Source: Bacillus sp. ISL-45 (GTDB taxonomy: Bacteria > Bacillota > Bacilli > Bacillales > Cytobacillaceae). Taken from it: a DNA stretch of 64,000 bases. Location: contig NZ_JAGGQQ010000008.1 of NCBI RefSeq assembly GCF_018613195.1, positions 62,001-126,000 of the forward strand, read 5' to 3'. How positions within the stretch are numbered: position 1 is the first letter of the stretch; each line of letters starts with the position of its first letter. A program made the position numbers and the translations under genes. Of this stretch, positions 47,414 to 61,766 are shown in pieces. The notes below the pieces were generated by a model. That model saw only the letters and a list, made by a program, of their open reading frames with translations, had not been told where the DNA came from and made no database searches.

Positions 47414-47425
47414 AAAGAGAACTTC

Positions 47426-47472
47426 AACACACTAAAGCAGTGGGGGTCAGACCCCCGCTGCTTTAGTGTGTT
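47426..47472. repeat. G5-core palindrome a (GGGGGTCAGACCCCC)
   Basis: Left arm AACACACTAAAGCAGT, core GGGGGTCAGACCCCC, right arm GCTGCTTTAGTGTGTT: a 23-bp stem with one G-U. It could act as a terminator for the membrane-fusion gene but has no T run. Confidence 0.88.
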
Positions 47473-47543
47473 AAAGCGTTCTATATGAGATATTTACCTA
47501 ACCGTGGATTTCAAATTCGAATGTTTTATGAGGGGTGAATGTA

Positions 47544-47860
47544 TTGAGGATTTTCTTTGAGGTGGTTAAACGGACTTTGGAGGAGATCAGGGGGTGCTGG
47601 GGGCTTGCTAAAGATGCGGATACAAATCGCGCTAGAGCAACTTATATGTCTCTCGTCTACATGAATATATTATTTATCCCATTCTATCTAATTCCCCTTC
47701 TGTACACCTTGGTCATTGTCATCGATGCAGTATTTTATGGACCGGTCCTGTTAGTGGGCCTGCTTTTAACATCCCATTTGTTCTGTTTGTGCTCTGGGTC
47801 AAAGTGAAAGTGTATCCTGTAATGAAGCAGAATTTGATTAACAAAAATATCAGTGCCTGA
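47544..47860 (+). pseudogene. Small membrane protein gene with a one-base frameshift
   Basis: Starts at TTG 47544, 8 bases after AGGGG (or GTG 47535). The first frame encodes a charged N-terminus (KRTLEEIRGCWGLAKDAD) and a hydrophobic stretch, then stops at 47807 after an atypical SHLFCLCSGSK tail. Adding one T to the TTTT tract at 47764-47767 restores a frame continuing NIPFVLFVLWVKVKVYPVM and ending at 47860, giving about 105 residues with two helices and a basic tail. This could be a real mutation or a sequencing error. Family not recognised. Confidence 0.6.
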
Positions 47861-47900
47861 CTTCCATTTCAGAGAAGCTGCTAGTTGTTGAGTCAGGCAC
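47853..47900. repeat. GTGCCTGACT palindromic repeat
   Basis: GTGCCTGACT at 47853-47862 and AGTCAGGCAC at 47891-47900 form a 10-bp stem. The right side contains AGTTGTTG, also found in the copy at 53505-53565. It overlaps the restored stop codon of the preceding gene. Confidence 0.65.
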
Positions 47901-47919
47901 CTGTTTAAATCGATAATTA

Positions 47920-48024
47920 TTACTCATTGTCTTTCCACTTTCGTCCCTTCTTGCTGATCTCCTCTAATAATATTAGCTTCTGTTCCTGACTTAACATACT
48001 CCAGCTTCCTGCTTTAACCTTCAT
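47920..48024 (-). CDS. Possible 34-residue protein
   Basis: A short frame, MKVKAGSWSMLSQEQKLILL then EEISKKGRKWKDNE, with AAAAGGAGTG 7-10 bases before the ATG at 48024. Composition (amphipathic helix, basic end) resembles other small Bacillus proteins. No family recognised. Its end abuts the palindrome at 47853-47900. It is supported only by the ribosome site and amino-acid composition. Confidence 0.5.
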   Translation of the reverse strand: MKVKAGSWSMLSQEQKLILLEEISKKGRKWKDNE

Positions 48025-48340
48025 GTAAAACACTCCTTTTATAATGTATTTTTTTGGGATTTCGTTTTTGTATTCCTCTTATACCGCCTTTTTCAAAAAA
48101 ATAAACAAAACAAATTCCTACATATTTCCAAGGTGGCAATTAAGTAGAATAGAAGTTTGTCGAATTGAGCAGCCAATTGGGTGAAATGGCTACATGAACT
48201 AGGGTTAACGAGTGAATAAAAGGCTGATTTTGTAAAAACAAGTTGATTTTATTGTCGCAAGAATCATTGAAACGAAAGTGAAAAATCCTTCGACTAACTG
48301 TGTGTAAACCAAAACATACAGTAATCGGGGGAATGAAAAG
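48025..48340 (+). other. Gap upstream of the NlpC/P60-like gene
   Basis: About 315 AT-rich bases between divergent small and NlpC-like genes. No repeat; no confident promoter pair. Confidence 0.4.
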
Positions 48341-48823
48341 ATGGGTGCAGTAACAAAAAGATTTTTTATTGGGTTAGTCATTTTTGCAATTGCTTCTTTG
48401 GCTTTTTTAGGGTCTGTGGGGCAAAAAGCAAGTGCAAGCGTTTCGTGGGGACAGGAGGTCACAGAGGTAGCGAAGCGCTACCATGGGGTAAAATATAAAT
48501 GGGGCGGTACAGAACCTAAAAAAGGATTCGATGCGTCAGGCTTCACTCAATATATTTTTGACCACTCAGCCGCAGACATTAAATTACCTCGAACGGCACT
48601 CGCGCAATACAAAACTGGCAAGGCCGTAAGCAAAAATGAACTGAAGGAAGGCGATCTGGTCTTCTTCAATACAAACGGAAAAGGAGTTTCCTTCGCAGGA
48701 ATCTACCTTGAAAAAGGCAAATTCATTGCTGTAACCGTATCAAAAGGAGTCTCCATCCAATCCATGGACTCAAAATACTGGAAAACAAAATATGTAGGCG
48801 CCAAACGAGTTTTAAAACACTAA
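48341..48823 (+). CDS. NlpC/P60 domain protein lacking catalytic residues
   Basis: A 160-residue secreted protein: signal peptide (about 1-33, ending KASAS) and one NlpC/P60 fold. The nucleophile Cys of the FDCSG motif is Ala65 (GFDASGFTQYIF), the catalytic His is Phe118 (GVSFAGIYL), and the third polar position is also not polar (KFIAVTVSKGV). The paralogue at 57899 keeps Cys and His. The fold is otherwise intact and in frame, so it is probably a binding or regulatory pseudoenzyme rather than a decayed gene. The stop codon is the first triplet of a palindrome. Confidence 0.9.
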   Translation: MGAVTKRFFIGLVIFAIASLAFLGSVGQKASASVSWGQEVTEVAKRYHGVKYKWGGTEPKKGFDASGFTQYIFDHSAADIKLPRTALAQYKTGKAVSKNELKEGDLVFFNTNGKGVSFAGIYLEKGKFIAVTVSKGVSIQSMDSKYWKTKYVGAKRVLKH

Positions 48824-48869
48824 CGCATTAACCCGCCGGGGGTCTGACCCCCGGCGGGTTAATGCGTTA
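48821..48869. repeat. G5-core palindrome b, starting on a stop codon
   Basis: TAACGCATTAACCCGCC, core GGGGGTCTGACCCCC, GGCGGGTTAATGCGTTA: a perfect 24-bp stem with a one-base centre. The first TAA is the stop codon of the NlpC-like gene. Confidence 0.92.
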
Positions 48870-48950
48870 AAGCGAAATTACTTATTCACTTGGACATCTT
48901 TTGCCTAATCAACAATATACTTTATTAAAAAGAAAGGAGTGATTGATGGG

Positions 48951-50267
48951 ATGTTATCTTCGGTTGCAGATCGTCTGTCCAGGGGAGTCCAGCGGTATTT
49001 GCCAGATGCGTTTGTCATTGCAGTCCTTCTTACATTATTCGTTTTTGTCATCGGCTTTTTTACCAACCCAACAGAACCAGTTGATCTAATCAAGTCATTC
49101 GGTGATGGTTTCTGGGTGTATCTAGCATTTACCATGCAAATGGTGCTTCTTTTGTTGACGGGTATGGTATTGGCATCAGTTCCTTTTGTGAAAAAAGGGC
49201 TTGAACATCTTGCCTCCTTTGCCAGCACCCCGAATAAAGCATATGTATTCACATTTGCGATTTCAGCTTGTTCGTACTATATCAACTGGGGACTGGCAGT
49301 GGTCGTGGGAGCGATATTTGTAAGAGAGGTGGGAAAACGAAACCAACAGGCTCACTTCCCACTGTTGGTTGCTGCTGCATATTCACCTACAGTCTTGTAC
49401 ACTGCAGGACTATCAAGTTCAATTGGTTTGACGGTCGCTACCCCGGATCATTTTCTGGCAGATGTAATGGGGGTCATTCCAACTTCAGAAACAATTTTCA
49501 GCCTTTCTACCATCATTATCTTTCTCGCCTTGTTCGTCACGATGCCTGTCATCATATGTCTAATGGCTCCAAAAACAAATATAAAACCTTATATTGCAAA
49601 GGAAGTTCCTGCGAAGAAGAAAGTGACAGGGGAATATGAGGAAAATACACCTGCACTAAAATTAGAAAAAACCCCTGTTTTAGGAATACTCATAGGACTA
49701 ATTGGTCTCTTTTATGTGGTCACGGAATTCATAAATGGCCGTGACTTGGATTTGAATATTATTAATATCATGTTTTTATCATTAGGCTTATTCTTCCATA
49801 GGTCACTGGGACAGTTCGGCGAGGCTTTTAAAGAGGCAGCAGGTTCCACCTCTCCAATTATTTTGCAATTTCCGTTTTATGCCGGGATCATTGCAGTACT
49901 TGGCAGTTCCGGTCTTGGCCAAGCGATCATTGATGGGATGGCTTCAATTGCCTCTAAAGAAACCTTTGATATCTTCACCTATTGGGCAGCAGGTTTAGTT
50001 AATATCCTGGCTCCTTCAGGCGGCGGGCAATGGGCACTTCAAGGCCCGCTACAAGTTCCGGCAGGTATGGCATTAGGCGTGGATCCAGCGACAATTGCGA
50101 TGGCAGTTGGATGGGGAGACGCATGGACCAACTTAATCCAGCCATTCTGGGCACTGCCAATTCTAAGTGTCGTAGGACTTCATATCCGTCACATCATGGG
50201 CTACTGCTTCCTGCTTGCCATCTGGGTTGGGGCATTGACAACCGTACTCATGTTGTTTTTGTATTAA
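48951..50267 (+). CDS. Short-chain fatty acid transporter, AtoE family
   Basis: About 438 residues, roughly 11-12 membrane helices. The family is the AtoE/TIGR00366 short-chain fatty acid uptake group. Visible markers are a SRGVQRYLPDAFVIAVLLTL start, FAISACSYYINWGLAVVVGA, a repeated-looking SGGGQWALQGP motif and a WGDAWTNLIQPFWALPIL segment near the end. AAGGAG is 11 bases before ATG 48951; GTG 48939 overlaps the site. It may supply acetoacetate or butyrate. It is flanked on both sides by palindromes with identical arms. Confidence 0.9.
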   Translation: MLSSVADRLSRGVQRYLPDAFVIAVLLTLFVFVIGFFTNPTEPVDLIKSFGDGFWVYLAFTMQMVLLLLTGMVLASVPFVKKGLEHLASFASTPNKAYVFTFAISACSYYINWGLAVVVGAIFVREVGKRNQQAHFPLLVAAAYSPTVLYTAGLSSSIGLTVATPDHFLADVMGVIPTSETIFSLSTIIIFLALFVTMPVIICLMAPKTNIKPYIAKEVPAKKKVTGEYEENTPALKLEKTPVLGILIGLIGLFYVVTEFINGRDLDLNIINIMFLSLGLFFHRSLGQFGEAFKEAAGSTSPIILQFPFYAGIIAVLGSSGLGQAIIDGMASIASKETFDIFTYWAAGLVNILAPSGGGQWALQGPLQVPAGMALGVDPATIAMAVGWGDAWTNLIQPFWALPILSVVGLHIRHIMGYCFLLAIWVGALTTVLMLFLY

Positions 50268-50288
50268 CACCAAAAAGCAGCAATCCGA

Positions 50289-50337
50289 TAACGCATTAAC
50301 CCGCCGGGGGTCAGACCCCCGGCGGGTTAATGCGTTA
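50289..50337. repeat. G5-core palindrome c
   Basis: Same arms as copy b (TAACGCATTAACCCGCC) with core GGGGGTCAGACCCCC, 22 bases after the AtoE-like gene. A perfect 24-bp stem. Confidence 0.92.
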
Positions 50338-50543
50338 AAGGGATGGGTTTCTCTAGTGAAGAGAATCAACATGTTTACATAAGCAACTTAAGAGGTAAAA
50401 GGAAGGAACAAACATACCTAGTTAGCGAAATGAAGGTGGACAGGCCTAATTTAGTGGCCTTTTAATAAGGAAATCATACTTTAAAGCAAGAGGGTAATTT
50501 TTGCAGTGCTTAATTGTTAACTGGCTGTAATACGTATGAAAAG

Positions 50544-50568
50544 ATTTTCTACTATAATAGTAGAAAAT
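50544..50568. promoter_or_regulatory. 25-bp palindromic operator over a -10 box
   Basis: ATTTTCTACTAT-A-ATAGTAGAAAAT is a perfect 12-bp inverted repeat. It contains TATAAT at 50553-50558. A repressor dimer bound here would block the promoter of the small gene 90 bases downstream. The -35 region is weak. Confidence 0.6.
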
Positions 50569-50656
50569 TGTTCACAAATATATTAACTGGAATTATATTT
50601 ACAATTTCAATAGTTTTATATATGATATTCATAATGAAATCAGGAGGGTCTTGTCA

Positions 50657-50812
50657 TTGGAACAACAATTGAAGCAGACAGAATATAATCAGGAGCTTTT
50701 CTTTGACATAATCAAGAGGGCTTATGAAAAAGGCATGAATGAAAAAGAGATCACCGTAGCCAAGATCGTAGAAGACCTCAAAAACGATCTGAAAAATACC
50801 GTAGTCAAATAA
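50657..50812 (+). CDS. Small 51-residue protein
   Basis: Starts at TTG 50657, 8 bases after AGGAGGG. The product is charged and helical (MEQQLKQTEYNQELFFDIIK then RAYEKGMNEKEITVAKIVED and a basic tail). No family recognised. A proper terminator at 50818 and an operator-like palindrome upstream give it the look of a complete transcription unit. Confidence 0.65.
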   Translation: MEQQLKQTEYNQELFFDIIKRAYEKGMNEKEITVAKIVEDLKNDLKNTVVK

Positions 50813-50817
50813 ACCAG

Positions 50818-50861
50818 GCAAATGGAAAGCCACTATAAAGGGCATATCCATTTGCTTTTTT
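50818..50861 (+). terminator. Terminator of the 51-residue gene
   Basis: GCAAATGGA pairs perfectly with TCCATTTGC over a 20-base loop, followed by six Ts. Confidence 0.82.
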
Positions 50862-50897
50862 CATTATAAACCGAACACGAGTAAACACACTTTATCA

Positions 50898-50936
50898 CTT
50901 TAAAGCCCCGGGGGTCTGACCCCCGGGGCTTTAAAG
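50898..50936. repeat. G5-core palindrome d
   Basis: CTTTAAAGCCCC, core GGGGGTCTGACCCCC, GGGGCTTTAAAG: a perfect 19-bp stem. Confidence 0.9.
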
Positions 50937-51070
50937 CTTTACTGTATTGGAAATCTGACCCCCATAAACTGTTGAATGATGTCGATTTGTATTTATGTAT
51001 GAAGTTATGATATTGTAGTTATGTTACTTTTGTGCAGTATAGTATTTGTTTAGGGGGTTCCTTAAATAGG

Positions 51071-51445
51071 ATGTTAAAAGATCTTGCTCCAGGTATAAAA
51101 ATTAGCATTTCCAGGTCTATTTCTAAGTCATTTGAGCAATATATGGGCAGAATTGGCTGGGATGAAAATAAGTATAACCTTAATGATTTTATCAAGGAAT
51201 GGCGAGAATATATCATCAATTCTTCATCATGGTACAGCCAGCTCAGTGAGGAAATGAAAGCTGATCCGGTTTTCCACGAAGAACTTGCTGTTAAAATCAA
51301 TGAAACAATCGAAAAAGTCTTTAATGAAGAGCCAACTCCGGCACAGATTGAAGAAATCGAAAAGCTCCAGGCGAAGCATGGTAAAGAGTTCGATTACTCA
51401 TGCAAGATGGAAGCGAAATACATCATCGACACTTACAAAAACTAA
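51071..51445 (+). CDS. Hypothetical soluble protein
   Basis: A 124-residue acidic, helical protein (MLKDLAPGIKISISRSISKS start, two amphipathic helices in 50-110). No family recognised. AGGGGG lies 13 bases before ATG 51071, which is long; ATG 51032 has no site. Composition and codon use look genuine. A hairpin terminator follows after 110 bases. Confidence 0.65.
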   Translation: MLKDLAPGIKISISRSISKSFEQYMGRIGWDENKYNLNDFIKEWREYIINSSSWYSQLSEEMKADPVFHEELAVKINETIEKVFNEEPTPAQIEEIEKLQAKHGKEFDYSCKMEAKYIIDTYKN

Positions 51446-51554
51446 GCACATTCGTGAGCAGGAATATACAGTTGCAGTGCGTACCTGATACAAGACTCGA
51501 CATATCATAACTTTCATGTGTAATCATGAAGCTTGCCATATATATTTCTAATTA

Positions 51555-51583
51555 GGCAGTCCGCATAACGCGGGCTGCCTTTT
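51555..51583 (+). terminator. Terminator
   Basis: GGCAGTCCGC pairs with GCGGGCTGCC over a 5-base loop, followed by TTTT. Confidence 0.85.
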
Positions 51584-51753
51584 CTGCGTTTTGGTCCTCA
51601 TTATCACGTGACAGAGTCTCCGCTTAACTGCTTTCAATCCCGCCACCAAAGTATTCCTGAATAGCATTTATCTCAAACGGTAACCTTTCCTCCGTCTATT
51701 CGTCTGTAAAAATGGAAACTTATACTAATAAATACCCCTGGTTGTGTTAAAAT

Positions 51754-51782
51754 TTTACAGTGTCTGTCGATAATAATATTAT
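51754..51782 (+). promoter_or_regulatory. Candidate promoter of the SLH-DUF4855 gene
   Basis: TTTACA, a 17-bp spacer and TATTAT, 40 bases before the start codon. Confidence 0.5.
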
Positions 51783-51821
51783 CATGCAATAAAAATAGTT
51801 TGAAAAAGAAAGGTACCTACT

Positions 51822-53498
51822 ATGAAAAGACTAGCAGTATTACTTATGGGCGTTCTGATGGGCATCAGCAGTTTGTTTGCAACACAGGCAGCCGCCGCGG
51901 AAACAAAATTCTCCGATTTGACCAGAAGCCATTGGGCATATCACGAAATCAAGTTCCTTACCGAAAAGGAAGTAATCAGAGGGGTTTCAGGAAAGTTTTT
52001 ACCGAATGAGACGATCACCAGATTGGACGCAGCCGTCATGATGGGACGGGCAATGAATCTGACGGCACAAGGGGAAACAACAACAGTGCCAGCGGATATG
52101 TTCGTTACGACAAGGGGATATCAAGAGGCTCTCGCCAGCCTCGAAAAAGGGATGTTCACTTTGAATAACGGTAATTTCATGCCGAATGAGAATTTAACAA
52201 GAAAAGATATGGCCAGAGCACTTGCTGTCGGTTTTGGATATGAAGGGAAAGGGCAATCGACATTCACTGATGCGCCTCAATCATCACCATACTATTCTTA
52301 CATAGATGCAATTGCTGCCAATGATGTGACGACCGGCTACAGCGATGGCACATTCAGGCCGGATATGCCTGTGAACAGGCTTCAATTTTCAATATTCTTA
52401 GCGCGGATTTACAGCAAGCCATTGGAGTACAGTGTTAAACAGGACGGGGTCACACTGCACACAGTAAGCGATTCGGAGGAAGCCATCAGCCTGGCTATGA
52501 CCTATCCGAAAGCGACCGTTCATCCAGTGAGCAATTCAATGGTCACTTATTCTGAACAAACAGGAGCGTTGAACGAAACGGGCATCCGTAACGGCGCGCT
52601 TATCTATAATGGTGCAGAGCGTAATATCACGTTCTCTCCAGAATTCTTCAGACCATATATCACTCCAAACGGAAGCTGGGGCACTTTATTCGAGAGCTTT
52701 ATTTTTCTAGGGAGGAGCTATCCTGGAGGTGAGTTCGGGGCCCATGCTAAAAATAACGCCAATTATTCTGATTGGTGGTGGTACCTCAGTCAGACTTTTG
52801 ACGAAGCAGGAGGACTTAATAACCTGAACGAAGCAGCGAAAGGCCTTGGCAAAACGGTTAATGTCTATATCGCCATTCCTTACCCTAAAATGGGAGGATC
52901 CATCGTCGACTTGGAAGGGAATGAACACCCGAATACCATGTCGGAACGTGAGAAAATCGTTTCCTGGTACATCGACCAGACAGAGATGCTCTGGGATGTA
53001 GCAGCTTACGAAAACCTTAATTTCAAGGGCTATTACTGGTTAAGTGAAACGATGGGCCACCGTGAAGATGAGAAAATGATCACAAGGATAGCAGATGAAA
53101 TCCATGAACGTAACAGAGCGTTCATTTACTCGCCACATGCTACATCAACCAACTACGAGCACTGGAAAAATTACGGCTTTGATGGAGCATACCTTCAGCC
53201 AAATGCTTTTAGGCTGAAAATCACAGATACGGAAGCGCGCCTTCACAGAGCCTTCCTGCAGGCACAAATCTACGGAAGCGGGATCAATCTTGAAATCGAC
53301 CAATACGGCCCACACCAAATGGAAGCCGGGCTGCAAAACTTCAGACAATACATTGAAATGGCTCACCGGTACGGACTCCCAGGCCAAAGCCTGATCGTCT
53401 ATCAAGGTGTAGGAATGGTAGACCGAATGGTCAAATATTGGAACCAGCCAGCCTATTATCAGACTTACCAATTACTCAGCAGTTTGGCGTATCAATAA
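51822..53498 (+). CDS. S-layer homology protein with DUF4855 domain
   Basis: A 558-residue secreted protein. A signal peptide (about 1-26, ending QAAAA) is followed by three SLH domains (about 28-205; FSDLTRSHWAYHEIKFLTEK, ITRLDAAVMMGRAM, YSDGTFRPDMPVNRLQFSIF), which bind pyruvylated cell-wall polysaccharide. A C-terminal DUF4855 domain follows (about 225-545). DUF4855 resembles a glycoside-hydrolase-like barrel, with acidic residues in GFDGAYLQPN and INLEIDQYGP, but no activity is established. AAAGG before ATG. Confidence 0.88.
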   Translation: MKRLAVLLMGVLMGISSLFATQAAAAETKFSDLTRSHWAYHEIKFLTEKEVIRGVSGKFLPNETITRLDAAVMMGRAMNLTAQGETTTVPADMFVTTRGYQEALASLEKGMFTLNNGNFMPNENLTRKDMARALAVGFGYEGKGQSTFTDAPQSSPYYSYIDAIAANDVTTGYSDGTFRPDMPVNRLQFSIFLARIYSKPLEYSVKQDGVTLHTVSDSEEAISLAMTYPKATVHPVSNSMVTYSEQTGALNETGIRNGALIYNGAERNITFSPEFFRPYITPNGSWGTLFESFIFLGRSYPGGEFGAHAKNNANYSDWWWYLSQTFDEAGGLNNLNEAAKGLGKTVNVYIAIPYPKMGGSIVDLEGNEHPNTMSEREKIVSWYIDQTEMLWDVAAYENLNFKGYYWLSETMGHREDEKMITRIADEIHERNRAFIYSPHATSTNYEHWKNYGFDGAYLQPNAFRLKITDTEARLHRAFLQAQIYGSGINLEIDQYGPHQMEAGLQNFRQYIEMAHRYGLPGQSLIVYQGVGMVDRMVKYWNQPAYYQTYQLLSSLAYQ

Positions 53499-53869
53499 AA
53501 ACAAGGTGACAGGCACCTGCCAGTTATCGGAAGGTAACTTCCAGTTGTTGGGAGGTGCCTGTCACTAGTAAAATAGCCACCGGGCAAGGAGCTTTAATAG
53601 CTAAATAGGCGGGTTTTTTCATGAAAATATTGTTATTTTTAGCTCCAGGCTCTTCCAATACATCCAAATATATTAATTTCCCCGATTTCAACTAATATAA
53701 AACATGTAATTTATTCCATTTTTAGGTCCTATAAACGTTGGTAAATCAGTATTTAACTCTTTTTCTCCTAATTTTTGTAACATGTTTCGCCTTTTTATAG
53801 CTAAATTGGATGATTCAGGCACGTTTTCCATGTGTTAAAATGTAAAAAAAAGACGAAAGGAGCAGACGA
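53499..53869 (+). other. Gap between two SLH genes
   Basis: About 370 bases. The palindrome at its left end probably terminates transcription. The rest is AT-rich, with TAAAAT-type -10 sequence near 53836 (GTGTTAAAATGTAA), similar to the sequence at 51745. Confidence 0.5.
53505..53565. repeat. GTGACAGGCACCT palindromic repeat
   Basis: GTGACAGGCACCT (53506-53518) and AGGTGCCTGTCAC (53553-53565) form a perfect 13-bp outer stem around an inner hairpin GGAAG-GTAA-CTTCC. It lies 7 bases after the SLH-DUF4855 stop. Related to 47853-47900 through AGTTGTTG. Confidence 0.85.
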
Positions 53870-55276
53870 ATGAAGCGTTTTGTCACAAGTATTTTACTAG
53901 CTTTGTTGATCCTGCCATTTACAGCGAATAGCTCTGAAGCGGCTGTTGCTTTTTTGGATGTAGATAGTTCGCATCGAGCTTATCCTGAAATCAGTTACCT
54001 TGCCGGAGGAAATATAGTCAATGGAACAGGGGGTTATTTTAACCCTAATAAAGAGGTAACGCGAGCCGAAGCAGCTACAATGCTTGGACGTGCGCTGAAC
54101 CTCAACGGAACGAAAAGAGCGACGATGTTCAAAGATGTGGATTCCGGAAGTTTTGCTTCAGGATACATACAGTCATCAGTCGAAAAAGGGATCATATCAG
54201 GCTACCAGGACGGAACTTTCCGGCCTGAACAACCTGTCAAGCGTGGAGAAATGGCCCTCCTTATTAACAGAGCGTTTGGCTATGGGGGATCCGATACGGT
54301 TTCAGCGGCGAATGCACTTATGGTAAAAGGGATTGCCCAGGGGATTTCACCAGGTAACTTTGGTTACGACCTGAAAATCAAGAGAGCAGATTTCTCGGTC
54401 TTTTTAGCGAGAGCGGTCAATTATAAATATCGAATCAATGCTTCAGTTGAATTTGGCGGAGATCTGCAAATCAAGGCTGATTCGCTGAATGTCCGCACCG
54501 GACCATCGACGAATTTCACTATTGTCCAGGAGCTGCCGATCGCGACTAAGGTAGAAGCAGCCTACAGAGTAGGAGATTGGGTTTTCATCCGTTCAGCTGA
54601 AGGTGAAGGACTTGTGCACGGTGCTTATCTTACTGGAACATACCCATCCTTCATGAACAAGCCATTACCTGCCTCAACGCCTTTGAATGAAGAAATGATC
54701 ATCATTGATCCAGGTCATGGTGGTAAGGATCCTGGAGCGTCAGGTTACGGTATCCAGGAAAAAGCAGTCGTGCTTGATACAGCGCTGAAAGTAAAGGCTC
54801 TTCTAGCTAAAACGCCTTTTTCATATAAGTTAACACGGGAAACAGATGTTTACTTAACACTTTCCCAGCGCGTTAGCTTGGCGAAGAGTGTCGGCGGAGA
54901 TACTTTTATCAGCATTCATGCGAATGCCTTTAATGGATCTGCAAACGGTACCGAGGTTTATTACTATGGTACATCAGCAACGAACCCGTATCAGTCCGAC
55001 AGCAAAAGACTTGCGGCGGCAATCCAGAATCGCCTGTTGGCAGCATGGAAGCTGTACGACCGCGGAATCGATCAAGGAGATTATCATGTTCTCCGTGAAA
55101 ATTCAATGCCTGCAGTACTAGTGGAATTAGGATTCATTGATAATAAGAAAGACAACGAGAAGCTTGCATCAGCATGGTGGCGCCAGGAAGCAGCCGAAGC
55201 CATTTACCTCGGTATTCTTGATTATTACAAGGCAAAAGGTTATAACGTAACGTATTTATATAATAATGTGAATTAG
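53870..55276 (+). CDS. SLH-anchored N-acetylmuramoyl-L-alanine amidase
   Basis: A 468-residue secreted hydrolase: signal peptide (1-24), SLH domains (about 27-185, the third weak), a bacterial SH3 domain (about 198-256; SLNVRTGPSTNFTIVQELP) and a zinc-dependent Amidase_3 domain (about 275-460). Catalytic residues are present: His283 in DPGHGG, Glu297, His350 in SIHANA and Glu419 in VELGF. It cleaves the amide between muramic acid and the peptide stem. SLH anchoring keeps it on the wall. The best SLH block closely resembles one in the neighbouring subtilase. Confidence 0.94.
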   Translation: MKRFVTSILLALLILPFTANSSEAAVAFLDVDSSHRAYPEISYLAGGNIVNGTGGYFNPNKEVTRAEAATMLGRALNLNGTKRATMFKDVDSGSFASGYIQSSVEKGIISGYQDGTFRPEQPVKRGEMALLINRAFGYGGSDTVSAANALMVKGIAQGISPGNFGYDLKIKRADFSVFLARAVNYKYRINASVEFGGDLQIKADSLNVRTGPSTNFTIVQELPIATKVEAAYRVGDWVFIRSAEGEGLVHGAYLTGTYPSFMNKPLPASTPLNEEMIIIDPGHGGKDPGASGYGIQEKAVVLDTALKVKALLAKTPFSYKLTRETDVYLTLSQRVSLAKSVGGDTFISIHANAFNGSANGTEVYYYGTSATNPYQSDSKRLAAAIQNRLLAAWKLYDRGIDQGDYHVLRENSMPAVLVELGFIDNKKDNEKLASAWWRQEAAEAIYLGILDYYKAKGYNVTYLYNNVN

Positions 55277-55314
55277 TTATTTATTGATTTATAATATGAA
55301 CCTATTAAAATAGG

Positions 55315-55343
55315 AAAGGAGTCTTATAATAGGCTCCTTTTCT
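55315..55343 (+). terminator. Terminator after the amidase gene
   Basis: AAAGGAG pairs with CTCCTTT, then TTCT. Confidence 0.65.
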
Positions 55344-55370
55344 AGTATAATCTTTTTATACTTAGATTAG

Positions 55371-55416
55371 TGTCTAGCTCCAGCGCTTGTCATGGACAAG
55401 GAGCTGGCGTTTTTCT
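55371..55416 (+). repeat. Short derivative of the Bacillaceae intergenic repeat
   Basis: TGTCTAGCTCCAGCGCTTGT, then CATGGACAAGGAGCTGGCG and TTTTTC. Both ends of the longer element (43-222) are kept with the middle lost, leaving a hairpin CTTGTC-ATG-GACAAG with a T run that could serve as a terminator. Confidence 0.7.
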
Positions 55417-55451
55417 AGTAGAAGGGACTTTTTAGGAAACGAGGAAATGGC

Positions 55452-57386
55452 ATGAAAAACTGGATTGCTTCACTATTGATTTTAGTATTATTCACCTCGG
55501 CGGCTGTCCCATCTTTTGCTACCACTATTGAACCGCTAGCAGAGCCGGAACGTTACATAGTGTTTTTTAAGGACGAAATGGCCCTTGAAGGGATTGAAGA
55601 AAATGGCGGGGAAATTGTCCAGTCCTATGCTTCGATAAAAGCTGCCACAGTAGTGATGGAACCAGCAAAGCTAGATGGGCTGCTATCTCTTGGTGTGATT
55701 ACCGGCTTCCAAAAAGAGCATAAGTTCGAAGCAAGCGCGCAAATCACTCCCTGGGCACACACGAATATGAATATCCCTGCCAAAGTGCCTGCTACTTTAA
55801 CAGGAGCAGGGATAAAAGTAGCCATTGTTGATACTGGTGTTGATTCCAGCCATCCCGATCTGACCGTTAAAGAGGGAGTCTGTACTCTGGATGACTCCAT
55901 CAGTGTAAATGCATGCAGTAAATCATTCCTTGATGAAAATGGACATGGCACACATGTAGCGGGTATCATTGCTGCGAAAAATAATGATATCGGCATTGTC
56001 GGTGTTGCTCCTGGTGCGGAGATTTATGCAGTAAAAGCACTTGATGGCAATGGTGACGGAACAACCTCAACAATTATGGCCGGCATCGATTGGGCCATTC
56101 GCAAAGGTGTTCATATTATCAATATGAGTTTGACAACTCCGTATCCTGACATGGGAATTAAGGCAATGGTGGACAAGGCCAATGCAAATGGTATCATGGT
56201 CATCGCTGCGGCAGGGAATGAAGGGACTTTTTCAGGAAGTGAAGAAAACGTCGAATATCCTGCAAAATTCCCTAGCGTTATCGCGGTCGCGTCAACTAAG
56301 TCAGATAATCGCAGATCGTCTTCGTCAGCAACAGGACAGGAAATCGAGCTTGCGGCTCCAGGTGAGATGATATACTCCACCATCCCAACGAGTCTGGTGA
56401 AATCAGGTTACGGTTCCATGAGCGGAACATCGATGGCAGCTCCATTCGTTGCTGGCATGGCGGCGCTCTATAAAGAAAAATTTCCTGGCTATACGAATGA
56501 TCAAATTCGCTCTCTTCTGCAAAAAAATGCAAAGGATTTGGGCATGGCTGGAAGGGACCGATTATATGGGTTCGGGCTCATCCAGACTGACAAGGTTCCT
56601 GTAGACCAGTCTCAGGCACCCATTACTTTTACCACAGCAGGGAAGGGCTCCCTCAAGCTTAATATGCAGCCTGTATTAGAGAAGTACCAAGCATATTCGG
56701 TCTATCGAGATGGAAGGTTAATCTCGAATAAAGCAACTTCAGCTACGTTTGAGGATTACGGAAAAAGCGGGTCAATAAAGTACATGATCTATCCTTGGCT
56801 CAATGGAAGCATGCTTAAGGATAAAGTAAATGAAACCATTGTATCGCTTTCCAGTCCCGTGATTCCCGACCTTGATAATTCGGTATGGTACAGCCGGAAC
56901 ATGATGTACTTATATTCAGTGAATATACTAAAAGGGGACGCCTTCAACCAGCTGCAGCCTGCAAATAATGTGACCCGGGCAGAAGCAATTGCCATGGTGG
57001 GCAGAGCGCTTGGATTGAATGGCACACAAAGGGCGACCAGGTTCTCTGATGTACCGAGCAGCAGCTTCGCATCCGGTTTTATACAATCAGCATACGAACA
57101 GGGCATCATCAGCGGCCGGGCAGACAAAACCTTCCGCCCGAATGAATTTGTCACACGTGCTGAAATGGCGATCATGCTGTCAAAAGCATATAAACTGCCA
57201 GACGCACAAACCGGAAGCTTCAGCGACGTCCCGGCAGGAATGGCCGGCTACCAGCAAATCTACAACCTGGCAGCAGCCAAAATCACAACAGGATACACAG
57301 ACGGAACCTTCAAACCAAACGAAAAAATGCAAAGATCCACCTATTCCGTCTTCCTATCCAAAGCCAATAATCCAGCACTGAAGTAA
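55452..57386 (+). CDS. SLH-anchored subtilisin-like serine protease
   Basis: A 644-residue secreted S8 protease: signal peptide (about 1-24), I9-like propeptide (33-95), catalytic domain (about 105-385), a linker domain (about 390-465) and three SLH domains at the C-terminus (about 468-640). The catalytic triad is Asp127 (IVDTGVDSSHPDL), His165 (NGHGTHVAG) and Ser327 (SGTSMAAPF), with Asn256 in AAAGNEG for the oxyanion hole. Two cysteines (144 and 155) may form a disulfide. Unlike its neighbours its SLH block is C-terminal. GAGGAAA before ATG. Confidence 0.95.
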   Translation: MKNWIASLLILVLFTSAAVPSFATTIEPLAEPERYIVFFKDEMALEGIEENGGEIVQSYASIKAATVVMEPAKLDGLLSLGVITGFQKEHKFEASAQITPWAHTNMNIPAKVPATLTGAGIKVAIVDTGVDSSHPDLTVKEGVCTLDDSISVNACSKSFLDENGHGTHVAGIIAAKNNDIGIVGVAPGAEIYAVKALDGNGDGTTSTIMAGIDWAIRKGVHIINMSLTTPYPDMGIKAMVDKANANGIMVIAAAGNEGTFSGSEENVEYPAKFPSVIAVASTKSDNRRSSSSATGQEIELAAPGEMIYSTIPTSLVKSGYGSMSGTSMAAPFVAGMAALYKEKFPGYTNDQIRSLLQKNAKDLGMAGRDRLYGFGLIQTDKVPVDQSQAPITFTTAGKGSLKLNMQPVLEKYQAYSVYRDGRLISNKATSATFEDYGKSGSIKYMIYPWLNGSMLKDKVNETIVSLSSPVIPDLDNSVWYSRNMMYLYSVNILKGDAFNQLQPANNVTRAEAIAMVGRALGLNGTQRATRFSDVPSSSFASGFIQSAYEQGIISGRADKTFRPNEFVTRAEMAIMLSKAYKLPDAQTGSFSDVPAGMAGYQQIYNLAAAKITTGYTDGTFKPNEKMQRSTYSVFLSKANNPALK

Positions 57387-57405
57387 AGCATTAACGCACC
57401 AAGGA

Positions 57406-57442
57406 ATTAACGCGCCGGGGGTCTGACCCCCGGCGCGTTAAT
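57406..57442. repeat. G5-core palindrome e
   Basis: ATTAACGCGCC, core GGGGGTCTGACCCCC, GGCGCGTTAAT: a perfect 18-bp stem. An extra degenerate left-arm copy (ATTAACGCACC) precedes it at 57390. Confidence 0.9.
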
Positions 57443-57464
57443 ATGGTAAAGCGGAAATCAACAA

Positions 57465-57502
57465 ACAAAGGCGCACATGAAACCAGTCATGTGCGCCTTT
57501 GT
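57465..57502 (+). terminator. Strong hairpin after palindrome e
   Basis: ACAAAGGCGCACATGA pairs perfectly with TCATGTGCGCCTTTGT over 6 bases, followed by TTAT. Likely terminator of the subtilase transcript. Confidence 0.7.
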
Positions 57503-57534
57503 TTATGCTTCCAGGGGATAAACATCGTTTTCGA

Positions 57535-57567
57535 CAAAAAAAGACACCGATTTACCAGATCGGTGTC
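57535..57567 (-). terminator. Minus-strand terminator-like hairpin with no known gene
   Basis: GACACCGAT/ATCGGTGTC, 9-bp stem and 7-base loop. Seven Ts follow on the minus strand. No convincing minus-strand gene lies between it and 57898. Confidence 0.6.
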
Positions 57568-57898
57568 AACAAATGGCTGATTGGCAGCCTCAAATAGATT
57601 ACCAACCAAAATCTTAACTTATATAAGTTATAGCAGAAAATGTCGAACTTTGTCGAGGGGTAAAAGATGGTAATTCACGTATAACATCCACACCCTATCT
57701 CGAAGTTCTCGAATAATTAAATACAATAATAACATCAGAACCAACTATATTTACCCAATCAACAAAACTGTAAACCGATTTTGCGAGATTTGTAATATAA
57801 TCGTAAAATTTATAACATTCGAATTCTGGTAAAATAGCCTCAATGAGGCAAAAAACGATATTTTTTTCCAAAAAAATCAACGAGGCAGAGGTGTACTG

Positions 57899-58900
57899 AT
57901 GAAGAAGCTCATATCCAAGCTAATCTTGGCAGCGCTAATACTATCGATGATCCCATTCCAAACAGCCATGGCAGCAACACAACAAGAACAAGTAGTAGAA
58001 ATCGCACACAAATACATAGGGGTTCCATATCTTTATGGTGGAACAACGCCAAGCGGATTCGATTGCTCTGGATATATCGGATATGTTTACGACCAAATCG
58101 GCGTGGATATGCCAAGGATTTCTGCTGATCAATACAATGTTGGGAAAGCAGTTTCCAAATCAGACCTCCAACCAGGTGATCTAGTATTTTTCGAAAAAAC
58201 ATATAATAAAGCGGGAATTACCCATTCCGGTATATACATAGGCGACAATCAATTCCTGAGTGCAACTTCAAGCAAAGGAATAAAAATCGACTCACTAGAC
58301 AGTACATACTGGGGACCAAAATTCTATGGAGCAAAAAGAGTTTTGGAAGATGCAACCCTTCAGCCAGGGGAATATCAAGATGTACCGCAGGATCATCTAG
58401 CGTATGAAGCTGTACGTACATTAAGCAATCAAAACGTCATTAAAGGCATTGACAATACGACTTTCCAGCCGGAACAGCCGGTTACAAGGGGACAAGCTGC
58501 AGCAATCATCAATCGTGTACTAAAACTGAAGCCTGCATCCCTTGACGGATTCAAGGATGTATCGCCTAACTACCAATTTGCAGCTGATATCGCTGCAATC
58601 AAGGAAGCCGGAGTCATTAACGGGTTTGCCGATGGAACATTCCGTCCGAACAACAATATGACAAAAGCAGAAATGGCAAAAATCGTTCAAAGAGCATTCA
58701 AGCTAAACAACCATGGCATACAGGCAGCAAGCGCACCGTATTCAGACGTTGCACCGGGTTATTGGGCATATGATGCAATTTTGACAATGCATAAAATCGA
58801 CACAACGACAATCTTTAGCGGCAGCACGTACGGCTCATCACTAAAAGCAACTCGTGCGACATTTGCCGCATCAATCTATAATTCTATCAACGCAAGATAA
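57899..58900 (+). CDS. SLH-anchored NlpC/P60 endopeptidase
   Basis: A 333-residue secreted protein: signal peptide (about 1-26), NlpC/P60 domain (about 28-148) and three SLH domains (about 155-330). Catalytic Cys56 (GFDCSGYIGYVY) and His109 (ITHSGIYIG) are present. The third position, usually His, Asn or Gln, appears as Ser121 (FLSATSSKGI), which may still allow activity. It probably cuts peptide stems, as gamma-D-Glu-diaminopimelate endopeptidases do. It is the catalytic counterpart of the pseudoenzyme at 48341. GAGG ribosome site about 10 bases upstream. Confidence 0.92.
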   Translation: MKKLISKLILAALILSMIPFQTAMAATQQEQVVEIAHKYIGVPYLYGGTTPSGFDCSGYIGYVYDQIGVDMPRISADQYNVGKAVSKSDLQPGDLVFFEKTYNKAGITHSGIYIGDNQFLSATSSKGIKIDSLDSTYWGPKFYGAKRVLEDATLQPGEYQDVPQDHLAYEAVRTLSNQNVIKGIDNTTFQPEQPVTRGQAAAIINRVLKLKPASLDGFKDVSPNYQFAADIAAIKEAGVINGFADGTFRPNNNMTKAEMAKIVQRAFKLNNHGIQAASAPYSDVAPGYWAYDAILTMHKIDTTTIFSGSTYGSSLKATRATFAASIYNSINAR

Positions 58901-58927
58901 GCTGGGAAGATTATTCCCAGCTTTTTC
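58901..58927 (+). terminator. Terminator of the NlpC/P60-SLH gene
   Basis: GCTGGGAA pairs perfectly with TTCCCAGC, followed by TTTTT; it begins right after the stop codon. Confidence 0.9.
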
Positions 58928-59001
58928 TATCATATTTTGTCTAAAAAAATAAGCAATATTACCGATATATAACGGGAGAAACTTAATAGACAGTAGTTTT
59001 T

Positions 59002-59031
59002 GACTATTTTCTTAAATATTCAAAAATAGTC
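59002..59031. promoter_or_regulatory. Inverted repeat ahead of the glucosaminidase gene
   Basis: GACTATTTT at 59002 and its complement AAAATAGTC ending at 59031. It precedes TATAAT at 59035-59040, whose own -35 is weak. Possible operator. Confidence 0.45.
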
Positions 59032-59110
59032 TATTATAATTGTAAATAAATTGGTAGAATGAGAGAGGAAATTGTCAGAAAAAGGGCAAAAAACATCTGG
59101 GGGTAAAAGA

Positions 59111-61102
59111 ATGAGGAAGAAATTTGGCATACTCGCCTTGACTTTCGGGTTGACAGTGAGCAGTTTATTGTCGTATCAGCAGCCAAAGGCTTATGCACAG
59201 GACGATATTACAGGCAGTGCCTTAGAGACAGAGATGCGTGCAATGATTGCTGAAAAAGTGATCTATGGATATGGAGAAGGTGTCTATAAACCGAATCTTA
59301 ATGTGAGCCGCGGACAGTTTGCGACATTTATTTCACGGGCACTTAAATTACCTGAAGGTCCGCATGTGTTTTCTGATGTCCCATTATCATCAGGTCTAGC
59401 ACATGGCATTAATAGTGCCACAGCAGCGGGTATTATCATGGGGTACACACCTACAACCTTCGGGCCAAATGAGCAGATTTCAAGAGAACAGGCGGCGGCG
59501 ATGATCGACCGTGCGTTTAACTATATGCAAATTTCGCGTGAAGACGCTGTGCTCAATTTTTCCGATGCAAATGAAATCAACAGCAATTTCAAAATGGCTG
59601 TCGCAAAAAACTCCAGGGATGGTTTGATCAAGGGTCTTTCAAATGGCGATGGTACATACAGGTTCTTGCCTAAAAAGACCGCAACTCGCCAGGAAGCAGC
59701 AGCTTTCATCTATCGCATGTTAAATAAAATGGAAGAAGCACAAATTCCTGAAGAACCAGGTGAGGATGGCGCAGCGGGTTATAAAGTGGCTACCATCCAG
59801 TCAAATGGTGATCTAGTTTACAGTTCTAAAACTTATTCAAGCTTTGATGCAGCTAAAACAGCAGCAACTGCAAATAACCAGGTAGTAACCGTTAATGAGC
59901 AGATAGTAGAAATGAATGCTGGATTGGTCTGGTCAAAGCCTGTTCTTGGTAAAGCATTGACCTATATATACACTGATTCAAATCTATCATCATCGTTCAC
60001 GTACCTGCCAGCTGGGCAGGAAATGAAATACGTGGATGCTACAGAGAATTATGTAAAAGTAATTCTTGCGGGCAAAACAGTATTCGTCAAGCATGAAGAA
60101 GTTTCGATGGTGCCTTTGCAGTTAATCGAAGGCAGAAACTATTATTCTGTTAACTCTAAAGGTGAGTTGGTCCACTCGATCTTTGACCCTGTAAAAAAAT
60201 CATATGCTTCTTATACAATGGGATTTGCGCCTAGCTTCATGGTTCAAGGCCAAAATTATTATAGCTGGGATGGCGGCCAGTTCATGAATACGACTGGAAA
60301 CGTAGTGGGGACTGCTTACCAGTACTTTAACTATTTGCCAGCCCGTACTGAAACGGTATACACTGCTGAAGAGTTAAATAGGTATATTGATAGTGTCCTT
60401 GCTGAAAAAGAGGCTCTATTCATATCGAATCCTACAACTTTCGCAAGATATAAGAATGCAACAACTGCGAGCAAAATCAAAGGGCTTGGAGCATACCTGA
60501 AAGAAGCAGAAGTGAAGCATAATATCAACGCACTTCTCATCCTTGGAATGGCCATGCATGAAAGTGACTTTGGCATGAGCAAATATGCCTTAGAACGGAA
60601 CAACCTGTTTGGCATCAAGGCGTATGACAGCAACACCGATGCAGCAGAAACATTTGCTACACCGAATGCAGCTATTGATGCATTAGCAGACCGGTACTTG
60701 AACAAGAACTATATCAATCCTACAGGTGCTCACGCTAACGGAGCTTCAACTGGGAATAAAGCACGCGGCTTCAATGTTAAATACGCATCAGACCCGTTCT
60801 GGGGACAAAAAATTGCCGGCCATATGCATAGAGTCGACCTGTTCTTAGGGAAAAAAGACCGTGGCGCAAGTGCATATCGTATCGGCCAAACAACAGTCGA
60901 TGGAGTAAACGCCAGAATCAATCCTGGAACAGAATCAGCATTAGTATATGCAAATAAAAACACAGGATCACCAGTAGCAATCCTGGGATCCGTCAAGCAC
61001 ACAGACAACTACGAATGGCTCAAGATCATGTCAGACGCAGCAGCGCAGAACGAAGTCTATATCCGTTCCGACCTGATCAAAGACCTGCCAATCGTAAAAT
61101 AA
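59111..61102 (+). CDS. SLH-anchored N-acetylglucosaminidase
   Basis: A secreted autolysin of about 663 residues. A signal peptide ends AYAQ. Three SLH domains follow (about 30-210), then an acidic linker, a central beta-rich region (about 225-400), a glucosaminidase domain (about 400-590) and a terminal SH3-like domain (about 600-655; GVNARINPGTESALVY). The likely catalytic Glu is 484 in MAMHESDFGMSK, followed by the typical NNLFGIKAYD. It hydrolyses glycan strands. ATG 59111 gives a standard signal sequence with GGGGG 7 bases before. A TTG at 59072 with GAGAGAGG could add 13 residues. Confidence 0.9.
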   Translation: MRKKFGILALTFGLTVSSLLSYQQPKAYAQDDITGSALETEMRAMIAEKVIYGYGEGVYKPNLNVSRGQFATFISRALKLPEGPHVFSDVPLSSGLAHGINSATAAGIIMGYTPTTFGPNEQISREQAAAMIDRAFNYMQISREDAVLNFSDANEINSNFKMAVAKNSRDGLIKGLSNGDGTYRFLPKKTATRQEAAAFIYRMLNKMEEAQIPEEPGEDGAAGYKVATIQSNGDLVYSSKTYSSFDAAKTAATANNQVVTVNEQIVEMNAGLVWSKPVLGKALTYIYTDSNLSSSFTYLPAGQEMKYVDATENYVKVILAGKTVFVKHEEVSMVPLQLIEGRNYYSVNSKGELVHSIFDPVKKSYASYTMGFAPSFMVQGQNYYSWDGGQFMNTTGNVVGTAYQYFNYLPARTETVYTAEELNRYIDSVLAEKEALFISNPTTFARYKNATTASKIKGLGAYLKEAEVKHNINALLILGMAMHESDFGMSKYALERNNLFGIKAYDSNTDAAETFATPNAAIDALADRYLNKNYINPTGAHANGASTGNKARGFNVKYASDPFWGQKIAGHMHRVDLFLGKKDRGASAYRIGQTTVDGVNARINPGTESALVYANKNTGSPVAILGSVKHTDNYEWLKIMSDAAAQNEVYIRSDLIKDLPIVK

Positions 61103-61107
61103 ACTTC

Positions 61108-61154
61108 AACACAGTAAAGCGGTGGGGGTCTGACCCCCACCGCTTTACTGTGTT
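61108..61154. repeat. G5-core palindrome f
   Basis: AACACAGTAAAGCGGT, core GGGGGTCTGACCCCC, ACCGCTTTACTGTGTT: a perfect 23-bp stem starting 6 bases after the glucosaminidase stop. Confidence 0.92.
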
Positions 61155-61200
61155 AAAATCATGTTGATTAAACTAGCTGGACCAATGGGAGGCTTGATCA

Positions 61201-61647
61201 ATGGAAAAGGAATTCATGGAACAGGTAAATGAATTCAGGCGCTGGGCAAGCAAACATACACGAACGGCGGGTGCTGGTGAGTGGGAGACGGAGTATCACC
61301 ACTGGGAACCCATTTACCAGGCAGCTGCTGAACTGGTCGCTCGTATTCCAGTATGTGACTGGGACCATGACATACTGGATAACTTCCTCTATATCCTCGC
61401 CCGTGATAATGAATGTGAAAATATTTTAGAACTCCTCATTCAATATCCAGCACAGCTGACAGCTATTGCTCGCCATGCGGTCGCTTATGAAGACCCGGAT
61501 ACTAGATGGCAAATTGCGTTTGGACTTGGTGAAATTAACACCAAGAGTCAGGAAATCAAAAACTTGTCCAGCCAATTCTTACTGGATGGAAACGAATATG
61601 TAAGACGACGAGCTTCTATGGCCTGGGAGAAAAAATGGTCTGAATAG
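61201..61647 (+). CDS. HEAT-repeat-like small protein
   Basis: A 148-residue all-helical cytosolic protein. The C-terminal two-thirds reads like HEAT/PBS-type helical pairs (ARHAVAYEDPDTRWQIAFGL, GNEYVRRRASMAWEKKW), as in small Bacillus HEAT proteins. Function unknown; such repeats mediate protein contacts. GGGAGG lies 9 bases before ATG. It sits between two palindromes and is convergent with the flippase gene. Confidence 0.75.
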   Translation: MEKEFMEQVNEFRRWASKHTRTAGAGEWETEYHHWEPIYQAAAELVARIPVCDWDHDILDNFLYILARDNECENILELLIQYPAQLTAIARHAVAYEDPDTRWQIAFGLGEINTKSQEIKNLSSQFLLDGNEYVRRRASMAWEKKWSE

Positions 61648-61701
61648 ACCTCGTACGGACATAACTTAATTGTTCACCTCGATGAAACTAATACACATCA
61701 C

Positions 61702-61744
61702 CACATTAAAGCGGTGGGGGTCAGACCCCCACCGCTTTAATGTG
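61702..61744. repeat. G5-core palindrome g
   Basis: CACATTAAAGCGGT, core GGGGGTCAGACCCCC, ACCGCTTTAATGTG: a perfect 21-bp stem between two convergent genes. Confidence 0.92.
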
Positions 61745-61766
61745 TTAAAACAAACAAATTTCAATA

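Follow-up and report, generated by a model that had tools for sequence, protein, structure and literature searches.

The stretch of DNA analysed here, referred to as the window, comprises 64,000 nucleotides of the genome of Bacillus sp. ISL-45 (labelled G000 below), namely positions 62001-126000 of a contig that is 413,566 nucleotides long (NZ_JAGGQQ010000008.1, here C27; C27:62001-126000). It carries a family of long palindromes built around a common core, and we describe here their structure, their distribution among related genomes and their relationship to RAYT-B, a putative REP-associated tyrosine transposase gene located elsewhere on the same contig. An earlier reading of the letters of the window without database searches (the sequence-only reading) had reported seven palindromes with a fixed 15-bp core and none in the first 47 kb, and both statements hold. 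The core GGGGGTCWGACCCCC occurs in seven exact copies, starting at 47442, 48838, 50306, 50910, 57417, 61124 and 61716, and an eighth core with 3 mismatches lies at 50949. When 3 mismatches are allowed, no match in the window precedes 47442, and shuffled versions of the window contain 0.57 matches on average (maximum 3), with none of 100 shuffles reaching eight. The units are the following.

47422..47476, unstranded: copy a, core 47442-47456, 8 bp past the stop of an HlyD-like gene.
48818..48872, unstranded: copy b, core 48838-48852, overlapping the last codon and the stop of an NlpC/P60 gene.
50286..50340, unstranded: copy c, core 50306-50320, 18 bp past a short-chain fatty acid transporter gene.
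50890..50944, unstranded: copy d, core 50910-50924, with a separate hairpin plus T-run upstream (by eye).
50949..50963, unstranded: second core in a degraded form (GGAAATCTGACCCCC), separated by 39 bp from that of copy d.
57397..57451, unstranded: copy e, core 57417-57431, 10 bp past a subtilase gene with SLH domains.
61104..61158, unstranded: copy f, core 61124-61138, 1 bp past an SLH/glucosaminidase gene.
61696..61750, unstranded: copy g, core 61716-61730, amid convergent genes (61201-61647 on the plus strand and a murJ-like gene, 61767-63287, on the minus strand).

The palindromes are hosted by a cell-surface gene region (48341-61102), in which Pfam recognizes NlpC/P60 (48341), a subtilase with SLH domains (55452) and a glucosaminidase with SLH domains (59072); additional SLH-like open reading frames (ORFs) were noticed by eye at 51822, 53870 and 57899.

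Alignment on the core defines a 55-bp unit in which the 15-nucleotide core stands between two inverted arms of 20 nucleotides each. The GTTAAAG-like tail previously placed after the right arm is actually the outer end of that arm. Read towards the core, the arm consensus is C-TTYAMCRC-ANTAAMGC-RCY, with TTAA repeated at a spacing of 8 nucleotides, and the left end of complete units reads CTTYAAC or similar. When folded as single-stranded DNA, each of the seven window copies forms a single hairpin (z -7.9 to -12.6, 200 shuffles each). An arm position that exists in three paired states (ACTAAAG, AGTAAAG and ATTAAAG, each with its complement) had been noted from the sequence, and its states are those of copies a, f and g. 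Copies b and c are almost the same, their 49-bp inner palindromes differing only in that the centre base is opposite; the family as a whole consists neither of identical recent duplicates nor of random sequences. The degraded core at 50949 is likely a decayed second unit, the relic of a doublet with copy d, because its distance of 39 bp is the usual doublet spacing: 18 of the 48 distinct close pairs (<400 bp), from 12 sources that include loci of other genera, have their centres 39 bp apart. The centre base is A or T in 149 of the 151 distinct palindromic cores in all the DNA retrieved (orthologs counted apart). In a separate tabulation of 86 copies, one at a contig end was left out.

The palindromes had been described as lying just after genes without exception. 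Using a simple ORF caller (ORFs of at least 60 aa), we found that this applies to six of the seven window copies, which are at most 21 bp from the stop-codon end of such an ORF, copy d being the exception, and to 16 of the 27 copies in the genome. This placement, together with the high stability of the single-strand stems, would suit hairpins selected at the RNA level, that is, terminators or stabilisers of mRNA 3' ends in which compensatory mutations in the transcript would keep the arms paired. However, the criterion of an intrinsic terminator, a hairpin directly followed by a T-run, does not describe these elements, as no consistent T-run exists among the seven copies. A terminator scan called three of them, all with weak T-runs (copy d on the plus strand, copies b and f on the minus strand), and it also called another short stem, located at the margin of copy g. 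Moreover, an Rfam search of the window gave no match, and copy d sits downstream of the other hairpin, the one that has a T-run.

The seven palindromes in 14 kb turned out to be one cluster of a family that stretches along C27 for about 350 kb. Genome-wide (4.6 Mb in 27 contigs), the exact core occurs 27 times, 26 times on C27 and once on contig C11. With a 13-mer core and up to 2 mismatches, there are 28 exact matches (27 on C27), 2 one-mismatch matches (both on C27) and 17 two-mismatch matches; none of these 17 is on C27, and the reversed control gives 12. In G011, a related complete genome, the order is collinear, the counterpart of the C11 site adjoins the remaining copies, and all 23 copies fall within 4.24-4.64 Mb of a 4.84-Mb chromosome. 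Because of this collinearity and of the position of the C11 site, the copies of G000 are probably all part of a single sector some 400 kb in size.

The sequence-only reading had also suggested looking for a REP-associated Y1 transposase elsewhere in the genome, and such a gene was found. There are three Y1_Tnp matches in G000, all on C27.

C27:142691-143248: RAYT-A, the second Y1 gene, flanked on both sides by the palindrome GTGACAGGCACCTCCCA...TGGGAGGTGCCTGTCAC.
C27:211409-211953 (locus L026): the third Y1 gene, apparently frame-broken.
C27:348571-349137: RAYT-B, intact, 188 aa, outside the window and 286 kb from the window start.

A copy of the palindrome under study lies 33 bp past the RAYT-B stop, and two more (one mismatched) are located about 1.1-1.2 kb upstream of the gene. 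RAYT-B matches PF01797 with 40.7 bits (cut-off 23); at E 0.001, Pfam reports only Y1_Tnp, and a C-terminal helix-turn-helix (HTH) domain was not found. A profile of 24 relatives has a sole match in the PDB at E 0.01, the E. coli TnpA_REP structure 4er8 (E 6.6e-4), and phmmer with RAYT-B by itself returned no PDB match. For the structural model of a 92% identical ortholog (pLDDT 93.8), the top fold match is 4er8_A (E 3.6e-9, TM 0.67 by query), followed by transposases of the IS200/IS605 type. Residues H60 and H62, which we take to be the HUH residues, and Y119, presumably the catalytic tyrosine, are invariant in 24 of 24 aligned relatives. The dN/dS values of RAYT-B, from six pairs among four orthologs, are 0.077-0.184, and the gene is therefore kept by selection. 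The inverted-repeat form of the palindromes might also suggest insertion-sequence ends or a miniature inverted-repeat transposable element of a DDE transposase. There is no internal sequence between the termini, however, and the sole tie found is with a Y1 (HUH) gene, no search having been aimed at DDE transposases near the copies; we consider this origin highly improbable.

RAYT-A is flanked on both sides by a second, unrelated palindrome family (GTGACAGGCACC...GGTGCCTGTCAC; 29 matches at 15 places, all on C27), which is also represented in the window at 53506-53565 (C27:115506-115565). Neither palindrome family stands alongside the third Y1 gene in the sequence inspected. A tblastn search for RAYT relics found none near the window cluster; apart from a weak match at 377.6 kb, its matches were confined to the three genes already known.

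Across 21 genomes of the genus, the numbers of exact copies are 27 in G000, 23 in G011, 22 in G015, 9 in G017 (Mesobacillus subterraneus), 3 in G010, one each in G001 (M. boroniphilus), G002 and G016, and 0 in the 13 others. An ortholog of RAYT-B (88-100% identity) is present in exactly G000, G011, G015 and G017, the same four genomes that have at least 9 copies, whereas the other 17 genomes have 0-3 copies and, as the best protein relative, one 46% identical to RAYT-B. Four genomes chosen blindly out of 21 would coincide in this manner in 1 of 5985 cases. A palindrome lies directly downstream of all four RAYT-B genes (with the variant core GGGGGTCTGGCCCCC in G017), and upstream copies are found 0.2-1.2 kb from the gene in all four genomes, another gene intervening in G000. 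The 46% identical relative in G001 stands by GGGGCCWGGCCCC.

The C11 site, which adjoins the 3' end of an 837-aa gene, presumably secA, is found in filled, decayed and empty states among the 21 genomes, but with no exact insertion border. The exact core is present there in G000, G011, G015, G001, G016 and G017; it is decayed in G020 (GGGGGCATAACCCCC) and G008, and G004 has a possible remnant. G010, a genome with no close RAYT-B, instead carries a tandem array (L138) beside the secA-like gene, in which the arms are CTTTAACGCTTTA and the cores differ from that of the family, GGGGCCTGACCCC being one of them. In the remaining 11 genomes, no unit was recognized at this site by eye.

Palindromes of a related kind accompany relatives of RAYT-B in other genera. 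Searching with RAYT-B and its relatives turned up 80 loci, of which three belong to this genus; 939,135 bases were inspected for them, about 6 kb around each. A palindromic core of the form GGGGxCNGx'CCCC occurs within this distance at 20 of the 80 loci (65 cores), compared to 0 of 80 in the reversed control. Three core types occur, TC.GA, AC.GT and CC.GG, apart from two exceptions that concern the centre; a single core type is found per locus in 15 of the 16 loci with two or more cores, and by eye the same arm pattern recurs in several genera. At L191, L204, L208 and L209 (also L198 and L210), the RAYT relative is directly upstream of another gene, the start of which, in our judgement, reads like comM/yifB. 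No palindromic core was found within 6 kb at L191, L204, L208 and L209, and one is present at L210. Possibly, this arrangement represents a second, domesticated setting of a RAYT-type transposase.

In most of the genomes tested, the copies are concentrated around the transposase gene. Within 40 kb of RAYT-B, there are 13 places in G000 (0.47 expected), 11 in G011 (0.38), 10 in G015 (0.38) and 3 in G017 (0.18), although these genomes share orthologous copies, so that the counts are not independent. Five genomes outside the genus (G021-G025) had been selected for cores near RAYT, and the inner 6.5 kb was accordingly excluded from the test; their counts refer to GGGGNCNGNCCCC with mismatched cores included, the genome totals were used as n for G022-G024, and the G024 count near RAYT was completed from locus L188. 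Between 6.5 and 40 kb from RAYT, an excess was detected in five of the seven genomes tested, namely G000, G011, G021 (7 places, 0.24 expected), G023 (8, 1.32 expected) and G024 (at least 9, 2.18 expected). In Cytobacillus gottheilii (G021), 10 of 12 places are within 100 kb of RAYT and 2 are elsewhere on the 4.7-Mb chromosome; in G025, 8 of 21 places are on the 418-kb contig that carries RAYT (P 0.0024).

Such clustering could reflect not local dispersal but a permissive chromosome region, rich in surface and wall genes and with roomy intergenic regions. The second unrelated family (GGTGCCTGTCAC) and all three Y1 matches share the contig with the palindromes studied here, and within +-40 kb the two families in G000 show no significant preference for their respective RAYT genes (Fisher 0.28). 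At +-20 kb, however, each family is found by its own RAYT: 7 places of the family studied here (B) and 1 of the second family (A) are near RAYT-B, as opposed to 6 of A and 2 of B near RAYT-A (Fisher 0.04). In this two-family comparison, B comprised 24 places, two one-mismatch copies having been added, whereas the 40-kb and 6.5-40-kb tests used exact copies. Furthermore, clusters recur around RAYT in other genera. We consider a permissive region a possible explanation of the clustering, though a doubtful one.

Taken together, the co-occurrence of family and gene, the copy at the 3' end of the gene, the related core near relatives in other genera and the clustering suggest that the palindromes are very probably the repeat family of the REP-associated tyrosine transposase RAYT-B. 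The proposal that a REP-type transposase acts on them in trans is well supported as far as the association is concerned (same contig, 3' copy, co-occurrence in the genus); the activity itself is putative.

Several observations weigh against this conclusion or limit its reach. RAYT-B scores 67.7 bits against the NCBIfam model REP_Tyr_transpos (NF047646), for which the cut-off is 80, and is thus related to this curated equivalog while falling outside it. Exact copies exist without a close RAYT-B in G001, G002 and G016 (one each) and in G010 (three), and the exact core that G001 and G016 retain at the C11 site weakens the case for RAYT-B as the sole maintainer of the cores. Among the RAYT relatives, 60 of 80 have no such palindrome within about 6 kb, and the core type fits the RAYT tree only weakly (4 changes, with 100 of 1000 shuffles as low). 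Beyond 6.5 kb, the clustering fails in two of the five genomes outside the genus, with no excess between 6.5 and 40 kb in G022 (1 place, 1.18 expected) and G025 (0, 0.53 expected). Nor does short-range dispersal from the gene where it now stands explain the window cluster itself, which is about 225-240 kb away from RAYT-B. Finally, no clear recent empty sites were found among G000, G011 and G015, and for 23 of the 27 copies in G000 a corresponding site exists in G011, so that the spread cannot be watched.

We next consider the arms. Within a copy, the identity of the two arms in G000 is 0.747 over 19 positions, compared to 0.598 (standard deviation 0.018) when right arms are re-dealt among copies, and none of 5000 re-dealings is as high; the corresponding values are 0.698 vs 0.558 in G011 and 0.722 vs 0.574 in G015 (21 of 22 copies). 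The perfect arm runs, counted from the core in the 27 G000 copies, range from 0 to 21 nucleotides and are at least 11 nucleotides long in 12 copies and at most 4 in 13. Some copies, therefore, have arms that are not complementary and others do not, and the earlier description of perfect arms changing together holds for the palindromic copies only.

For those copies, the comparison of orthologs, which covered G011 and part of the G015 sequence, is informative. The divergence between G000 and G011 at fourfold sites is 22.6%, and 15 of 17 G000-G011 pairs entered the test for paired change, 119424 and 349177 being left out because of an arm indel. In the 8 palindromic pairs, 5 of the 13 changed arm columns are double changes, with 0.56 expected if the arms were independent; in the 7 non-palindromic pairs, only 1 of 22 is double, with 1.05 expected. 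Copy e in the window is among those whose arm sequence differs between orthologs in a paired manner. Likewise, both arms of copy 329069 read CATTAAACGGGT in G000, CGTTAAACGGGT in G015 and CGTTAAACGGTT in G011, and both arms of copy 321191 read CCAGC, CCAGT and CCAAT, respectively. Arm pairing is kept where it is present and is not restored where it has been lost.

Paired changes at orthologous sites could be viewed as compensatory mutations in a transcript. Among the sense-strand arm mismatches, however, G.U is not in excess over A.C (48 vs 58; 7 vs 10 at convergent sites; counted in G000, G011 and one G015 contig, with orthologs counted repeatedly), which gives no indication that the stem is under selection as RNA. 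In addition, 7 of the 15 ortholog pairs are non-palindromic and yet remain in place, and RNA-level selection leaves the tie to RAYT-B unexplained. Accordingly, the hairpin in RNA, one of the explanations offered by the sequence-only reading, is not supported, and we regard it as improbable.

Selection on a DNA hairpin or cruciform, as the target of RAYT-B or of a host protein, with each paired change arising as two mutations and no copying mechanism involved, is a stronger competitor. Decay of the core is rare (28 exact 13-mers vs 2 with one mismatch) despite the fourfold divergence between G000 and G011, divergence is lower in the arms (6-9%, pairs with indels excluded) than in the flanks (10-13%), and G020, which lacks RAYT-B, has a decayed core at the shared C11 site. 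Such selection also predicts the upkeep of pairing, yet the persistence of asymmetric copies is left unexplained: the non-palindromic copies stay at the same sites, which argues that arm pairing is not required there. Moreover, one of the paired changes is a transversion on both sides, and G001 and G016 keep the exact core at the C11 site without a close RAYT-B. We rate this explanation as a real possibility, albeit one with chances clearly below even.

Template switching, described as a general mechanism in PMC8794818, predicts, when it occurs across an existing palindrome, that pairing is kept but not restored, and the observed pattern fits this prediction. A palindrome-rebuilding copying mechanism, as suggested by the sequence-only reading, is compatible with the data, and template switching at the DNA level is the reading that fits best and that we favour for the arms. 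The centre base adds little to this case. Flips between A and T at the centre, seen in 4 of 17 G000-G011 pairs against 7.9% A-T change at fourfold sites (P 0.041), are above expectation in a suggestive manner only. We rejected them as proof of template-switch inversion given that the excess over the neutral rate is marginal and that, with the centre nearly always A or T, flips could simply be tolerated.

The comparisons with known systems given here refer to the accessible parts of the cited papers. TIRtrons are RAYT-like genes flanked by inverted repeats that share GGGGWSAS, with some self-complementary families, dimers and clusters (PMC3733652). The core described here (GGGGTCAG; GGGGACAG in other genera) fits GGGGWSAS, whereas the accessible part of that paper describes no Bacillaceae case, no fixed core whose arms co-vary, no doublets at a 39-bp spacing and no paired change between orthologs. 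A C-terminal HTH domain is carried by 20 of 26 TIRtron examples according to PMC6006769, where TnpA_REP subclass 2.1 is probably the TIRYT group and REP-like sequences were not found near subclasses 2.1 and 2.3. TIRYTs of subclass 2.1 have the C-terminal HTH (PMC6006769), which RAYT-B lacks by Pfam; RAYT-B resembles TIRYTs by its repeats but not by the HTH domain, and may not belong to subclass 2.1.

With the REP/RAYT systems (REPtrons), the family shares the Y1 HUH fold that RAYT-B has in common with E. coli TnpA_REP (4er8), the extragenic palindromes, often past stop codons, and the copy beside the transposase gene. It differs from REPs in having a core that is palindromic throughout, around a centre of 1 nucleotide, and in lacking a GTAG tag: of 170 strand scans, 22 (12.9%) contain GTAG at a distance of up to 50 bp, vs 16.2% of random windows. 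GTGG is enriched (64 of 170 scans vs 16.5% of random windows) where a GT-ending arm joins the G run. Pseudomonas REPINs have fixed ends and a variable spacer with compensatory change (PMC3116915). Fixed and variable parts are thus common to both, but the layout here is the reverse, with a conserved centre and variable outer arms, although 39-bp doublets exist. In the Marinomonas REPtrons Ma and Mb, REPs are also concentrated near tnpA_REP, which was read as a recent arrival (PMC8266576); here, by contrast, most G000 copies have G011 counterparts in spite of the 22.6% fourfold divergence. Literature searches with the core strings of this family, its relatives and the second family returned only papers unrelated by title, and those on RAYT, REPINs, TIRYT, Bacillus, Firmicutes, Mesobacillus and template switching found no account of the family in titles or abstracts, most subscription journals being outside the scope of both. 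We classify the palindromes as a new family of TIRtron-type, RAYT-linked repeats in Bacillaceae, which forms a new REP/RAYT branch.

These results translate into a model of how the family may have arisen and persisted. Under this model, RAYT-B would recognise the GGGGGTCWGACCCCC hairpin in single-stranded DNA, nick it and join copies to new sites, with a preference for sites in the vicinity of the RAYT-B gene, so that dispersal would be short-range or cis-biased. Most of the dispersal would predate the split of the present species, the copies being inherited in place thereafter. The core would stay fixed because it is the recognition site of RAYT-B, whereas the arms would drift, and in palindromic copies a change on one arm would be carried over to its partner. 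The most likely route for this is a template switch made by the replication fork at the palindrome, perhaps with the help of RAYT nicks. Perfect yet different stems could persist through such arm copying; copies that are already asymmetric would not be rebuilt, and their arms would diverge independently.

What is less ordinary in these findings is the paired arm changes at orthologous sites and the clustering within tens of kb even though most copies are old. More tentatively, and with reservations no smaller than those about the permissive region, the RAYT repeats of Bacillaceae may in general be local populations, on which the transposase acts mainly within tens of kb of its gene, in a neighbourhood kept over species-level time, and in which template switching, at hairpins perhaps exposed by the transposase itself, rewrites each palindrome as a unit. 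If so, a sector of the chromosome would hold a long-lived, gene-centred field of hairpins in which the core and the symmetry persist while the arm sequence wanders. Sequence conservation, in the core, is separated here from conservation of symmetry, in the arms, within one element. The fixed core, the paired changes between orthologs and the field around the gene amount to a natural experiment on the spread of REP-type elements, one that bears both on the places at which a domesticated transposase is active and on the way in which palindromes stay perfect.

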